Shown: piece by piece, positions 25,441-35,408 of the stretch
How the letters are laid out: each line of letters starts with the position of its first letter
Numbering within the stretch: position 1 is the stretch's first letter
DNA from: Streptomyces sp. SPB074
GTDB taxonomy: Bacteria; Actinomycetota; Actinomycetes; Streptomycetales; Streptomycetaceae
NCBI RefSeq assembly: GCF_000154905.1
Contig: NZ_GG770539.1
Span: forward strand, 1,391,598-1,455,597
Direction: 5' to 3'
Length of the DNA stretch: 64,000 nucleotides
Position numbers and translations under genes: made by a program
The notes under the pieces: generated by a model
The model's input: only the letters and a program-made list of their open reading frames with translations
The model's database searches: none
Told to the model about the DNA's origin: nothing

Positions 25441-26328
25441 CTAGTGCTGCTCGCGGGGCCCCGGCACGACACGCTCGCCCTCGGGGTGAACGGTGAGCAG
25501 CTGGCGCATCGCAGTCTCGGCGCCACCGCCGTCTCCGGAAGCCAGGGCGTCGACGATGCGGGCGTGGTGGGCCACGGACGCCTCGTTGGGACGTTCGCAA
25601 CCCATCGCGGGACCGCCCGACACGTGCAGGGCCGCGCTGACGATCCCGGACAGGTGCTCCAGCATCCGGTTGCCACCGATCTGGATCAACAAGGAGTGGA
25701 ACTCGGCATCCGCTCGGGAGAACGTGATGCCGTCCCCCTGCCCGAGCGCGTGCCCCATGATCTCGACCATGTCGACAAGTCGCTGCTGCACGTCCTCACG
25801 GCCGTGCCCGGCGGCGAGACGCGCGGCGAGGGGTTCGATGCTCCAACGCAGTTCATTGAGCTCCCGGCGCTGATCATCACGCTGGGGCCCGTAGGCGCGC
25901 CACTCGATGATGTCGGGATCAAGCAGGTTCCAGTCACTGACCGGACGGACCCGCGTTCCCACATTGGGGCGGGCGCTGACCAGTCCCTTGGCCTCCAGAA
26001 CGCGCAGGGATTCCCGCACGACGGTACGGGACACCTCGAAACGCTGGCCGATCTCCTCGGGAACGAGGGGGCGGTCCGCCCCCAGGTCGCCGGAGACGAT
26101 CATCTGGCCGAGCTGCTGAACGAGTTGGCCGTGGAGGCCGCGACCCCGGCCGGCACCGCCGCGTCGCGGCACCCGGCCGAGTTCTGGCTCCGCGGCACCC
26201 CAGGAAGGAACTCCGATCCTGTCCTGGGCGGCCTCGGCATAGGGGTAGCGGTCGATGTCGCCCGGGCCGGCGAGGCCGGAGTCGGCGGAACGGGCGGCGG
26301 TCATCATGGTGTGCGCAACGGTACTCAC
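25441..26328 (-). CDS. whiH: Sporulation regulator WhiH (GntR/FCD family)
   Basis: A GntR winged helix (QLVQQLGQMIVSGDLGADRP, QRFEVSRTVVRESLRVLEAKGLV) is followed by an FCD ligand domain. The position next to hrdB and the N-terminal extension VSTVAHTMMTAARSADSGLAGPGDIDRYPYAEA identify it as WhiH, required for sporulation septation in aerial hyphae. GTG 26328 gives 295 residues; the open frame extends 28 codons upstream. GAGGAG lies 19 bases before this GTG, which is too far, so the start is not certain. WhiG-dependent transcription is known for the gene; a TCCGATAA word upstream may be its -10. Confidence 0.92.
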   Translation of the reverse strand: MSTVAHTMMTAARSADSGLAGPGDIDRYPYAEAAQDRIGVPSWGAAEPELGRVPRRGGAGRGRGLHGQLVQQLGQMIVSGDLGADRPLVPEEIGQRFEVSRTVVRESLRVLEAKGLVSARPNVGTRVRPVSDWNLLDPDIIEWRAYGPQRDDQRRELNELRWSIEPLAARLAAGHGREDVQQRLVDMVEIMGHALGQGDGITFSRADAEFHSLLIQIGGNRMLEHLSGIVSAALHVSGGPAMGCERPNEASVAHHARIVDALASGDGGGAETAMRQLLTVHPEGERVVPGPREQH

Positions 26329-30221: not shown

Positions 30222-33038
30222 CTACCCCGCGCCGCCCGCAGGTTCGGAACCACCACCACGGCGCGAACAGCGCGCTTCCGCCTCCTGTACGGACGCAGGC
30301 GTCTCTACAAGCCCACCCCCGTTGCCCGCCTCCGGGCCGGCCGGAAGTTGTTCCTGACCGGCATTCGCAGAACCAGTCCTGCTGTCTGTCCCGCTCCCCT
30401 GCCTCTGAGCGCGCCTACAAGCCTCCTGACTACCCGGCCGTGCACCCGTCGCGAGAACCACGGAGCCCTCCTGCCCCACACTCGGGACAGTCCCCTGGCC
30501 CTCGCGTACCTCCACGTTCTGCGCAGAGCTCTCCCGAACAGGCAGCACCGGGCTAGATCCACTGCGGGCCACCGGTGAATCACCCACGTGTGAATCGCCC
30601 ATGTTCGAAGGCGCCGCGCGGTCCGTCCGATGCGTCACCGGTCGTACCGCCGCCCTGACCGGAATGACGGCGTCCGAGGCATCGGATTCCGGATGCGGGA
30701 GCCCAGCGAGCGGAAAGCGATCGGAGGCAGCCCGACGACCACGCACATCAATCAACTCGTTCTCCCCTTCGTGCCTCTCGCGGTCCGCTTCCCTCTCGTT
30801 CGCTCGCGTGCTCTCACGTCCAGGAGGCGATGCGGCGACGCGCCGCCGCGCTCGTGCGTACGCCGTCCTCCCCGCGTCGTCCCCCGTCCCGTTGGTCTTG
30901 CCACTGCTGGGCCGCGCCTGTGCGGGGCCGCCCGGGCGCCTGGTGTCACGCCGCCGCGTCGACGGACGCGCCGTCGGACCCGTACGAGCGGAGACGCCAG
31001 AACGGGAAGCAGCGGAACGGGAGGCTGAACCCGTACGAGATGCCGAGCGCACGCGGCGTCGCCCGTCGCCGGTCCCGGGCTCGGCCACCTCTCCTTCCGG
31101 GGCGCCCTCCGATGCTCCCGCTGCGCTCCGGGACACTCCGGCTTCCTGTTCACTCGTGGCCCCTCGTCCCGCCCCGTCGGCAGCGGAGCCGGTACGTGCC
31201 GACGCAGGACGAGCGGACGAACGGTGCGCGGTCGGCCGCCTCGGGGAGCCGCAGAGGCGCTGCCGAATCTCCTCGGGCTCCACTCCCTTGTCGAACGCCT
31301 GGTCCAGCAGCGCCGCGAAGACGTAGTGGGGGTCTACCGCGAGCGCGAGATGCAGGGACAGCCGTGCCTCGCTCTCTTCGCCTTGCGACCAGGCCGTCCA
31401 GCCCGCCAGCGACAGCGGTGCTGCCGCGTGCTCCTTGTACGAGAGCACACACCGGCGCGCGAGCGCGCGCCACAAGCGAAGGGCGGCGTCGGGGAACGCG
31501 AGGAAACTCGCCGCCTCGTCCCTGGCCTCCCTGTCCTGGAGACCGATGACGAGCCGCGCGGCCTCTTCGTGGGTAAGTGCCGCGTCGTCCGCGAGGTCGG
31601 CTTTGAGCCGGTCCGAAGGGACGGGGACGGTTGCGAATCGTGTCAGCACGTTGTCGAGCAACCCGATCGTGCCCCTGCGGATCTTGAGCACGTTCTCCCT
31701 GCCGCCGAGGATCTGCGGGAGAAGGTCGAGGGCGATCCGGTCGAGTACCCGCTCCTGTTCTCGCGCGGCGGCGGTGCTCCAGGGCAGGAGCCTGCTCTCC
31801 AGACGCGCCGCGGGGAGGGGAGCCGGCGTTCCCTCGTACACAGAGGTCGCGGCGAGAACAGAGCTGCCGACGGGCAGCAGGGCGACACCCGACTGTTCCT
31901 GGTCCGCGAGCGGGGTCACGTAGGACCAGGACCGACCGGTGGAGACACAGAGTGCTTCGACCACAGGTACATCGAGACTGCCGCAGGCGACGCGGATGTG
32001 CTGGGCGAGGGGACGCAGTCCCTCGCGCACCTCGGCGGCTCCGGGCTGCGGGACGGTGCCGGGCCTCGCCTCGTGCGGCTCCTGGAACAGGAAAGCGATG
32101 ACACCATCGGGCAGGGATTCATCGCACCGCCTGCGCAGGAGAGCCGTCGCTCCGGAACCGCGACCGCGCCCGGGAGAACCGAGGAGCATCGTGGCCACCC
32201 GCTCGGCGGCCTGCGGCCACCGCGTCGGATCAGCGGGGATGCGGAGCGCCGTGCGCCGGCCGAGCCGGCCCCACTCGCCGTGCAACGCGAGGAGGACGAC
32301 GCTGTTGCCCGGCACGTAGCCCAGCAGGTACGGGAGGGAATCGGCCAGGTCAGCGATGGATTTCAGCGAGATCGCCTGTCGTCCCGGAAAGGCCTTCCCG
32401 AAGGGCTCCGCGTCGGGCAGGGAGGCGGAGGGGCCGGCGCCGACAGCCGCCAAAGACCGGGGGTCTTCCCCGTCACGCGAGGAGTCGTTCTCGGGTGAGC
32501 GTCGTTGCACGGGGACGCCGGTGTCCCGGGCCGGTGACACCGGGCGGTCTCCCCCTGAACGTTGCGCGGGAATCACGGCGTCGGGCTTTCCCTCTGCCCC
32601 GGGGCGGCTGGGCGGCTGGCAGGCACGGGAGGATTCGGCGGCAGAGCTGGGCGGCGAATTATCGGCGCACGCGGAGGGCGGATTCTCAACGGAAGCGACG
32701 GCGGGGTTGTCCGTGGACACAGAGGACTGGTCCCGTCGCGAGCGAGTGGCGCCTTCCCCAGCCGTGTCGGGTGAAGGAACCTGAGCGGGCGCTGAAGGCC
32801 GGCATCCAGCCGGGTCGGAGCGGGGCGGGGGCGACACATCCGCCGTGCGCGGGACGCTCGACATCTTTTCGGTAGGCGGGTCGGAGGTCTCTCCCACAGG
32901 CGGCGCGGTGCGCTCTTCGGCGAAAGCGATGGGCGGCTGCTCGTGGGTAGGGACGACGGGTTGCTCGGGCGAGGGGGCTGCGCGGTGCTGCGTAGAGCGG
33001 AGGGCGGCCGAATCGGATTTCTCGTTGCGGTGGGTCAT
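30222..33038 (-). CDS. DUF4192 protein with very long disordered tails
   Basis: A 938-residue protein in which only the middle (about residues 220-620) is folded: AISLKSIADLADSLPYLLGY, VPGNSVVLLALHG and RTALRIPAD mark the DUF4192 domain, a common actinobacterial family of unknown function. The N-terminal 215 residues are Pro/Ser/Glu/Ala-rich. The C-terminal 310 residues are Arg/Ser/Gly/Ala-rich. Most family members are 200-500 residues, so this is a long variant. ATG 33038 follows no clear ribosome site. It is divergent from the RecQ-like gene across a region with two DnaA boxes. Upstream open frame (to 35198) is antisense to recQ and not real. Confidence 0.82.
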   Translation of the reverse strand: MTHRNEKSDSAALRSTQHRAAPSPEQPVVPTHEQPPIAFAEERTAPPVGETSDPPTEKMSSVPRTADVSPPPRSDPAGCRPSAPAQVPSPDTAGEGATRSRRDQSSVSTDNPAVASVENPPSACADNSPPSSAAESSRACQPPSRPGAEGKPDAVIPAQRSGGDRPVSPARDTGVPVQRRSPENDSSRDGEDPRSLAAVGAGPSASLPDAEPFGKAFPGRQAISLKSIADLADSLPYLLGYVPGNSVVLLALHGEWGRLGRRTALRIPADPTRWPQAAERVATMLLGSPGRGRGSGATALLRRRCDESLPDGVIAFLFQEPHEARPGTVPQPGAAEVREGLRPLAQHIRVACGSLDVPVVEALCVSTGRSWSYVTPLADQEQSGVALLPVGSSVLAATSVYEGTPAPLPAARLESRLLPWSTAAAREQERVLDRIALDLLPQILGGRENVLKIRRGTIGLLDNVLTRFATVPVPSDRLKADLADDAALTHEEAARLVIGLQDREARDEAASFLAFPDAALRLWRALARRCVLSYKEHAAAPLSLAGWTAWSQGEESEARLSLHLALAVDPHYVFAALLDQAFDKGVEPEEIRQRLCGSPRRPTAHRSSARPASARTGSAADGAGRGATSEQEAGVSRSAAGASEGAPEGEVAEPGTGDGRRRVRSASRTGSASRSAASRSGVSARTGPTARPSTRRRDTRRPGGPAQARPSSGKTNGTGDDAGRTAYARARRRVAASPPGRESTRANEREADRERHEGENELIDVRGRRAASDRFPLAGLPHPESDASDAVIPVRAAVRPVTHRTDRAAPSNMGDSHVGDSPVARSGSSPVLPVRESSAQNVEVREGQGTVPSVGQEGSVVLATGARPGSQEACRRAQRQGSGTDSRTGSANAGQEQLPAGPEAGNGGGLVETPASVQEAEARCSRRGGGSEPAGGAG

Positions 33039-33080
33039 GGAGAGCACTGTGCACGGAAAGCGAATTCCCCGCTTGCCCGC

Positions 33081-33091
33081 CTGTGGATAAC
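33081..33091 (-). promoter_or_regulatory. DnaA box (inverted)
   Basis: TGTGGATAA, the exact complement of the consensus DnaA box TTATCCACA, within CTGTGGATAAC, an 11-bp inverted match to 33180-33190. Confidence 0.6.
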
Positions 33092-33179
33092 TAGTTGCAT
33101 TGCTTTTTTTCGCACAACCCCTTATCGGATTAAACAGATCAGCCCGCACGCGCTCATCCGATGATCTCCCGGAGGGCTG

Positions 33180-33190
33180 GTTATCCACAG
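33180..33190 (+). promoter_or_regulatory. DnaA box
   Basis: GTTATCCACAG contains the perfect consensus TTATCCACA, 99 bp from its inverted partner. The stretch between (33092-33150) is AT-rich for this genome, with a T8 run. Confidence 0.6.
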
Positions 33191-33242
33191 CCCGCGCAGC
33201 CCTCGTTCGCCGGTTGTCGGTCTCATCAGGTTGCATGGGGGC

Positions 33243-35408
33243 ATGAACGACGAAGACCTCCGTCCCACCGCCGACGCGATCCTCGCCCAACTCGTGGGGG
33301 ACGCCAGTGGCCGTGCCCGGCTGCGAGAGGACCAGTGGCAGGCCATCGAAGCCCTGGTCGTGCACCACCGCAGGGCCCTGGTCGTGCAGCGCACGGGCTG
33401 GGGCAAGTCCGCCGTGTACTTCGTGGCCACGGCGCTCATCCGGCGGCGCGGTGGCGGGCCGACCGTCATCGTCTCTCCGCTGCTCGCGCTCATGCGCAAT
33501 CAGGTGGAGGCGGCGGCTGCGGCGGGGATCAAGGCGCGCACCATCAATTCGGCGAACCGCGAGGAGTGGGACGCCGTGCAGGAGGAGATCCGCGCCGGGG
33601 AGGTCGACGTGCTCCTCGTGAGCCCGGAACGCCTCAACCATCCCGCCTTCCGTGACGAGGTCCTTCCGAGTCTCACCGCGGCGACGGGCTTGCTCGTGGT
33701 CGACGAGGCGCACTGCATCTCCGACTGGGGGCACGACTTCCGTCCGGACTACCGTCGGCTGCGCACCATGCTCGCCGACCTGCCGGCCGGGGTCCCGGTG
33801 CTGGCCACCACGGCGACGGCGAACGCCCGGGTGACCGCCGACGTGGCGGAACAGTTCGGGACCGGCGGGGCCGCGGACGGCGCGCTCGTCCTGCGGGGTC
33901 CCCTCGACCGCGAGAGCCTCAGTCTGGGCGTGCTGCGCCTTCCCGGCGCCGCTCACCGCCTGGCCTGGCTCGCGGATCACCTGGAGGAGCTGCCGGGCTC
34001 GGGAATCATCTACACGCTGACCGTCGCCACGGCCGACGAGGTGGCCGCGTATCTGCGCCAGCGGGGTCACGAAGTAACCGCCTACACCGGGCGTACGGAG
34101 AACGCGGACCGGCTGGAGGCCGAGCAGGCTCTCCTCGCGAACCGCGTGAAGGCGCTCGTGGCGACCTCGGCACTCGGCATGGGCTTCGACAAGCCCGACC
34201 TCGGCTTCGTGGTCCATCTCGGCGCGCCGTCCTCGCCCATCGCCTACTACCAGCAGGTGGGCCGTGCGGGCCGCGGGGTGGAGCACGCCGAGGTACTGCT
34301 GCTGCCGGGCAAGGAGGACGAGGCGATCTGGAAGTACTTCTCGTCTCTGGCGTTCCCGCCCGAAGAACAGGTCAGGCGCACCCTCGATGTCCTGGCGGGT
34401 TCCGCCCGGCCCATGTCGACCCAGGCCCTCGAACCTCTCGTGGATCTGCGGCGCACCAGGCTGGAAGCCATGCTGAAAGTGCTCGACGTGGATGGGGCTG
34501 TCAAAAAGGAGAAGGGTGGCTGGACCGCCACCGGGCGGCCGTGGGTCTACGACGCGGAGCGGTACGCCTGGGTGGCCGGGCAGCGGGCGCTGGAGCAGCA
34601 ATCGATGCGGGATTACGTGGCGAGTACCGGATGCCGGATGGAGTTTCTGCGTCGCGCGCTCGACGACGAGGCCGCCGCGCCGTGTGGCCGCTGCGACAAC
34701 TGCGCCGGCCCGCGATTCGGTACGGAGGTGTCCCCGGTCGCGCTCACCTCCGCGCACGGCGAACTGGAGCGCCCCGGAGTCGATGTGGAGCCGCGCCGTA
34801 TGTGGCCGACGGGGCTGAGTGCCGTCGGCGTATCTCTCAAGGGACGCATTCCGGCCTCGCAGCGGGCCGAGACCGGCCGGGCACTCGGCAGGCTCTCGGA
34901 CATCGGCTGGGGCAACAGGCTCCGTCCGCTCCTCGGCCCCGACGCGAAGGACGCACCGGTACCCGACGACGTGCTCCAAGCGACGGTGGCGGTGCTCGCC
35001 GACTGGGCCAAGGGACCGGGCGGGTGGGCCTCGGGAGACAAGGACGCCCTCACGCGGCCTGCCGGAGTGGTCACACTTCCCTCCCGGACTCACCCCGAGC
35101 TGGTGGATTCGCTGGGCGCCCGTGTCGCCCGGATCGGTCAACTGCCCTTCCTCGGCGGACTCGTCCTGCGCGAGGACGCCGAGCCCGGGCGAGCGCACCG
35201 GGGGAACAGCGCGCAGCGGCTCCTCTCACTGCGCGGAACTCTCGCGGTGCCCGCCCCGCTCGCCGAGGCCCTGACGGAGCATCCCGGCCCCGTCCTTCTC
35301 GTGGACGACTTCACGGACTCCGGCTGGACGATCGCCGTGGCGGCGGGCCTGCTCAAGGACGCGGGCGCGAAGGAGGTGCTGCCGCTGGTACTCGCGGTTC
35401 AGGGCTGA
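33243..35408 (+). CDS. RecQ-family ATP-dependent DNA helicase with phosphoribosyltransferase-like tail
   Basis: Helicase core: [16 protein letters not shown] (Walker A), [22 protein letters not shown] (DEAH and aromatic-rich loop), [38 protein letters not shown], and [12 protein letters not shown] (motif VI). Zinc-binding cysteines sit in [13 protein letters not shown], then [10 protein letters not shown]. The last ~200 residues are not the usual RQC/HRDC; they end in [23 protein letters not shown], the PRPP-binding loop signature of type I phosphoribosyltransferases (ComF-like). ATG 33243 (GGGGG just upstream) or TTG 33231 may start it. It probably works in recombination or repair; the tail's role is unknown. 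Confidence 0.88.

Follow-up and report, generated by a model that had tools for sequence, protein, structure and literature searches.

Titration and datA-like sites generally carry more than two DnaA boxes. Clusters of such boxes in S. coelicolor are said, with reference to a 2006 study by Smulczyk-Krawczyszyn, to repress untimely initiation. Promoters controlled by DnaA are also a known kind of site. In S. lividans, DnaA binds and autoregulates its own promoter, and the transcriptional activity of the protein has been characterized in only few species (PMC8203912). The 9-mers TTATCCACA and TTGTCCACA are listed DnaA boxes of other bacteria and S. coelicolor, the high-affinity S. coelicolor box being given as TTGTCCACA, not TTATCCACA (PMC4285127, Table 1). 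Domain I of actinomycete DnaA dimerises and has been proposed to link distant boxes (PMC13270200). A further relevant element is the LexA-independent DNA-damage promoter tTGTCRgtg-8 nt-TannnT (recA P1-type), which has been tied to PafBC; in an M. smegmatis pafBC mutant, RecQ protein is lowered (PMC5656591). An initial search in S. venezuelae suggested that the mycobacterial PafBC motif is not conserved there (PMC9380542). The statements given with a source derive from excerpts of it. In the excerpted literature that was searched, which excluded the 2006 S. coelicolor cluster study, DUF4192-recQ was not met as a DnaA target.

The locus described here lies in a stretch of 64,000 nucleotides from Streptomyces sp. 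SPB074 (contig NZ_GG770539.1), referred to as the window. A gene for a DUF4192 protein and a gene for a RecQ-family helicase diverge from an intergenic region that contains two DnaA-box sequences:

30222-33038, minus strand: DUF4192 protein gene, 938 aa (PF13830 at residues 229-589, E 5.4e-52)
33039-33242: divergent intergenic region, 204 bp, 58.3% GC, with limits taken from the ORFs
33082-33090, minus strand: DnaA box 1, TTATCCACA followed by GG, 43 bp 5' of the chosen DUF4192 start codon
33104-33110, plus strand: T7 run within the spacer
33181-33189, plus strand: DnaA box 2, TTATCCACA, ending 41 bp before the recQ TTGCATG motif
33214-33236, plus strand: recQ promoter-like motif, TTGTCGGTC-8 nt-TTGCAT, conserved across Streptomyces
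33243-35408, plus strand: RecQ-family helicase gene, 721 aa (TIGR00614, 224.6 bits against a cut-off of 219.8)

The DUF4192 start codon used here was picked by its conserved place in relatives. The sampled relatives of the organism are Streptomyces, and the RecQ closest to its own is ~78% identical.

An earlier note on this DNA had described perfect TTATCCACA boxes facing each other between recQ-like and DUF4192 genes, 99 bp apart and away from the origin, and the sequence bears this out. The boxes at 33082-33090 (minus) and 33181-33189 (plus) sit within the 11-mers CTGTGGATAAC (33081-33091) and GTTATCCACAG (33180-33190); their 9-mer starts are 99 bp apart, 90 bp separates them, and the pair (genome position 1,424,679) is ~2.07 Mb from dnaA (C2:3495083-3495268). 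The T8 run mentioned in the same note is in fact a T7 run, for which no counterpart was seen in the relatives inspected. The segment around it was called AT-rich, which is true relative to the window (71.8% GC) but not in absolute terms, the 88 bp between the 11-mers having 52.3% GC. Both sites carry a 9-mer that qualifies as a DnaA box by sequence (TTATCCACA or TTGTCCACA). Exact TTATCCACA occurs nowhere else in the window, and none of 100 shuffles contained two copies (shuffle mean 0.02). Allowing one mismatch to TTRTCCACA yields three window sites, namely the two boxes and TTGTCGACA at 25770, with a higher shuffle mean of 5.6. Comparison of the intergenic region with a plasmid collection gave no match.

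To place the boxes in the context of the genus, we compared the DNA upstream of recQ in 121 Streptomyces genomes including our own, all of which contain RecQ. DUF4192 is divergent to recQ in 92 of them. Within 300 bp of the recQ start, exact TTATCCACA is found in 86 of these 92 genomes and TTRTCCACA in 90, compared with none for the reversed motif and a mean of 0.14 in a first-order Markov simulation. Two exact boxes are present in 58 of the 92 (49 inverted as in the window, five both on the plus strand, four both on the minus strand), more than two in none, and fewer than two in 34. Conversely, recQ has no box in any of the 29 remaining genomes, which are those where no divergent DUF4192 was detected in the upstream stretch of ~1.2-1.5 kb, shorter at contig ends. 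Absence of the boxes from orthologous loci had been named in the earlier note as counting against its proposal; across Streptomyces, they persist.

A set of named loci, which is not independent of the genus set because some contigs occur in both, contains TTRTCCACA in 46/49 adjacent and 2/30 other loci. Ten named loci have DUF4192 downstream of recQ and in the same orientation. In all ten, TTRTCCACA occurs at most 500 bp upstream of the DUF4192 core, with no copy at recQ or elsewhere in the locus. We mapped these states on a quick tree of 103 RecQ rows, built with no mixture model and holding duplicates because the named and genus sets overlap. Box presence changed seven times on this tree, the two-box state 17 times and adjacency five times, and three adjacent loci lack a box. 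The association between adjacency and box is not significant (sign test, median p 0.5) and rests on few events, because the genomes are related and adjacency and box presence changed only five and seven times.

The box upstream of DUF4192 extends beyond the genus. Among 22 loci from other genera of Streptomycetaceae (the best-scoring ones, from 50 matching genomes), 18 have TTRTCCACA no more than 300 bp upstream of the DUF4192 domain. The same holds for 15 of the 63 loci taken from actinomycetes of other families, these 15 being spread over eight families. The 63 loci come from 87 matching genomes with weak and fragment matches left out, and the offsets of L263, L267 and L268 are uncertain. 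By family, counts beyond Streptomycetaceae range from 6/7 in one and 3/6 in another to 0/6 in each of three; 48 of the 63 DUF4192 genes have no box. The reversed control gave 0/85 upstream of DUF4192 beyond the genus. In the class sample, the seven loci from the genus itself all have TTRTCCACA within 436 bp.

We then considered the position of each box relative to its gene. The genus-wide box counts above use the 92/29 split of genomes; the named-locus counts, DUF4192 distances, box 1 invariance and recQ-motif counts use a 90/30 split, and one locus, L080, has too little upstream DNA. Box 1 is near-invariant as TTATCCACAGG in 82 genomes: position 3 is A in 81 of them, in a search that admitted only A or G there, and the two trailing G's are kept in 81 and 82, while the flanks vary. 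Its distance to the in-frame DUF4192 ATG is 39-41 bp in 79 of the 82 genomes and 43 bp in the window. On the recQ side, an exact box 2 was found in 56 of the 92 adjacent genomes, and from its end to the TTGYATG (-10-like) motif of recQ there are 38-41 bp in 49 of these 56 (41 in the window). The 36 genomes without an exact plus-strand box comprise 11 with a one-mismatch box, 23 with none and two without the motif; 8 of the 11 one-mismatch boxes lie 38-40 bp from the recQ motif. In the 49 inverted pairs, the boxes are separated by 1 to 90 bp, the longest spacer being that of the window and the commonest 2 bp (18/49), arranged as TGTGGATAA-NN-TTATCCACA or its TTG variant. From inspection of the spacers by eye we make no claim of helical phasing. 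Since the spacer varies and the gene distances are near-fixed, each box is positioned with respect to its own gene and not to the other box. Both boxes have the conserved position relative to a gene that would be expected of a DnaA-regulated promoter.

The recQ motif has the consensus TTGTCaGTGCCATCGGGTTGCATGG and is kept with or without boxes. TGTC-n12-TTGYAT is present in 78/90 adjacent and 26/30 other genomes and the stricter TGTCR-n11-TTGYAT in 59/90 and 21/30, with no hit for either form in the reversed control. The motif is similar to the PafBC-type promoter: in common with the recA P1-type sequence it has TTGTCR, a gap of 8 nt and both outer Ts of the -10 element, but its second -10 base is T instead of A. 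A PafBC-type recQ promoter is a lead only, because the S. venezuelae search, as excerpted, suggested that the motif is not conserved (PMC9380542).

For DUF4192, no common promoter motif was found across genomes. Two candidates were rejected: GGAAY-n15-18-CGTC as a universal sigma promoter, which fits 11 of 53 genomes in the 40-bp class, and a promoter of the TTGAC/TANNNT type, which fits 0 of 80 genomes.

The genome-wide count called for in the earlier note gave at least 40 exact copies of TTATCCACA (a lower bound because the assembly has runs of N) versus 2 of the reversed pattern; TTGTCCACA occurs 32 times versus 7 reversed. Fifteen hand-picked Streptomyces genomes contain 14 to 43 copies of TTATCCACA versus 0 to 5 reversed, and counts above the reversed controls indicate that this 9-mer is enriched in the genus. 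In our genome, 22 of the 40 copies read TTATCCACAGA. Most of these 22 are copies of a dispersed repeat and, belonging to this separate element, should not be counted as ordinary promoter boxes.

The dispersed repeat has a central hairpin-like inverted repeat (TCACTC-n4-GAGTGA type) followed mostly by GAGTTRTCCACAGAT, with a C-run/G-run tail ~67 bp on in 11 of the 22 copies examined. GTTATCCACAGAT is present in 19 copies in our genome and in 1-3 copies in each of 30 other Streptomyces. When one copy served as the query of a DNA search that scored few candidates per genome, 1 of the 121 Streptomyces genomes gave a match, so that the repeat was detected in this species only. Pure species-specificity of the short motif is argued against by genome G284, from another family, where 11 sites match GAGTTATCCACAGAT with at most one mismatch and two of them exactly. 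No protein family was common to three or more repeat-adjoining loci (E 1e-8, ORFs of at least 45 aa).

Our best reading of the intergenic region is that of DnaA-controlled promoters, a constant feature on the DUF4192 side that in many genomes includes recQ, with no large titration cluster. We infer DnaA binding, regulation and a cell-cycle role at DUF4192-recQ from sequence and its conservation, and both 9-mers are probably DnaA-binding promoter elements, box 1 serving DUF4192 and box 2 serving recQ. DnaA would bind the strong TTATCCACAGG site beside the DUF4192 promoter; in genomes with a second box, a DnaA pair would span both promoters. Expression of DUF4192, and secondarily of recQ, would then track the level or activity of DnaA in the replication cycle, the predicted effect being either repression or activation. 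The variable spacer would fit, because the dimerising domain I proposed to link distant boxes could tolerate variable box spacing (PMC13270200). Such an arrangement resembles the S. lividans dnaA promoter in having DnaA boxes 5' of a gene in the same genus; it differs in that the gene is DUF4192 with a divergent recQ, ~2 Mb from dnaA, and in being known here from sequence. The earlier note had suggested DnaA control of both genes. The conserved boxes at near-fixed distances from each gene speak for this proposal; what holds less well is the recQ half, as the constant box is that of DUF4192, an exact recQ-side box is found in 56 of 92 genomes, and no box occurs at recQ in the 29 genomes without a divergent DUF4192. 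DnaA targets besides dnaA are little described for Streptomyces in the excerpted literature, and a box near-fixed across the genus names a concrete candidate.

A narrower form of this explanation, which overlaps with it and does not exclude it, is that only box 1 matters, box 2 being a by-product of turnover and recQ being solely under its DNA-damage-type promoter. On the tree, 17 changes of the two-box state compare with seven for the presence of any box, the recQ motif is kept in most genomes of both classes, and the lowered RecQ protein of the M. smegmatis pafBC mutant fits as well (PMC5656591, as excerpted). Against these points, 49 of the 56 genomes with an exact box 2 have it 38-41 bp from the recQ motif, and most one-mismatch boxes fall at nearly the same place. 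We hold the box-1-only form to be possible, short of probable. The earlier note had alternatively proposed DnaA titration. As a titration or DnaA-inactivating site (a datA-like cluster), the boxes would soak up DnaA and the neighbouring genes would be incidental; two strong boxes far from dnaA could suit this role, and DnaA-box clusters that repress untimely initiation have been reported in S. coelicolor and B. subtilis (PMC5742627, as excerpted). The S. coelicolor clusters likewise consist of DnaA boxes outside oriC. Here, however, there are only two boxes, positioned to gene starts, and the third of the three sites found at the one-mismatch level in the window is 7 kb off. Instead of several clustered boxes, exactly two exact boxes are seen in 58 of the 92 genomes and fewer in the other 34. 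Box spacing is tied to the genes, the boxes go with DUF4192 when it is relocated, and the chromosome centre has its own four-box group (C2:3587335-3587675). These observations make a titration site unlikely.

The pair might also be the operator of another dimeric regulator, a palindrome-like site that contains the DnaA 9-mer by coincidence. While the common 2-bp spacer and the almost invariant box 1 would be expected of such an operator, a spacer of 1-90 bp and the 34 genomes with fewer than two exact boxes are unlike a rigid dimer site, and TTATCCACA and TTGTCCACA, both used here, are listed DnaA boxes (PMC4285127, as excerpted); we judge this quite unlikely. Chance, or descent from a copy of the genome's own dispersed box-bearing repeat, is highly improbable. 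Six box pairs in the genome do share a 71-bp offset, but the window pair is offset by 99 bp and has neither the hairpin nor the GAGTTATCCACAGAT ends of the repeat, and the repeat turned up in 1 of 121 genomes whereas the window boxes are conserved. On these grounds a dispersed-repeat origin of the window pair was rejected.

The excerpted literature searched gives no function for DUF4192, and the name occurs there in one paper, on plasmids of Arthrobacter and Paenarthrobacter: DUF4192 is among three plasmid ORFs that have DNA repeats upstream. The protein has no match in NCBIfam, and its best match by sequence among solved structures (E 0.016) is unconvincing. The domain is predicted with a pLDDT of 88.4 and a pTM of 0.84 to have a RadC-like N-terminal part and a TPR-like C-terminal part. 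A Foldseek search with this model returned nothing at E <= 0.001, the best hit being RadC 2qlc at 4.2e-3. In VIA, a re-scoring of Foldseek's list in which top Z scores of 7 to 8 are common even where there is no clear relative, 2qlc_B has a Z of 9.8 (rmsd 3.4, 122 aligned), followed by helical-repeat rows at Z 7.5 and below. RadC-like metal chemistry is not claimed for DUF4192 because no His is among its listed invariant or near-invariant columns, and the RadC-like fold of the model says nothing about function, as a shared fold shows none. The box before DUF4192, which also occurs at part of the loci from eight further actinomycete families, offers a functional lead. A more speculative idea, which we regard as rather doubtful, is that DUF4192 serves actinomycetes as a dedicated, DnaA-controlled factor of replication or the cell cycle, at the core of an unrecognised DnaA regulon, to which the divergent promoter couples a damage-inducible RecQ. 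DnaA activity and fork damage would in that case be read out at one regulatory region.

Additional boxes and elements were observed elsewhere. A second RecQ-like gene (C2:2676781-2677752, minus strand) has TTATCCACA at C2:2678006, ~250 bp upstream of the matched segment. A search of 11 box loci against Rfam gave two matches, neither over a box: Ms_IGR-5 sRNA (L030:1806-2049) and 6C RNA (L014:1686-1761). The chromosome centre near dnaA (C2:3.53-3.59 Mb) contains inverted box pairs in addition to the four-box group, and box groups with similar spacings of ~260 bp are found in other Streptomyces, among the places listed.
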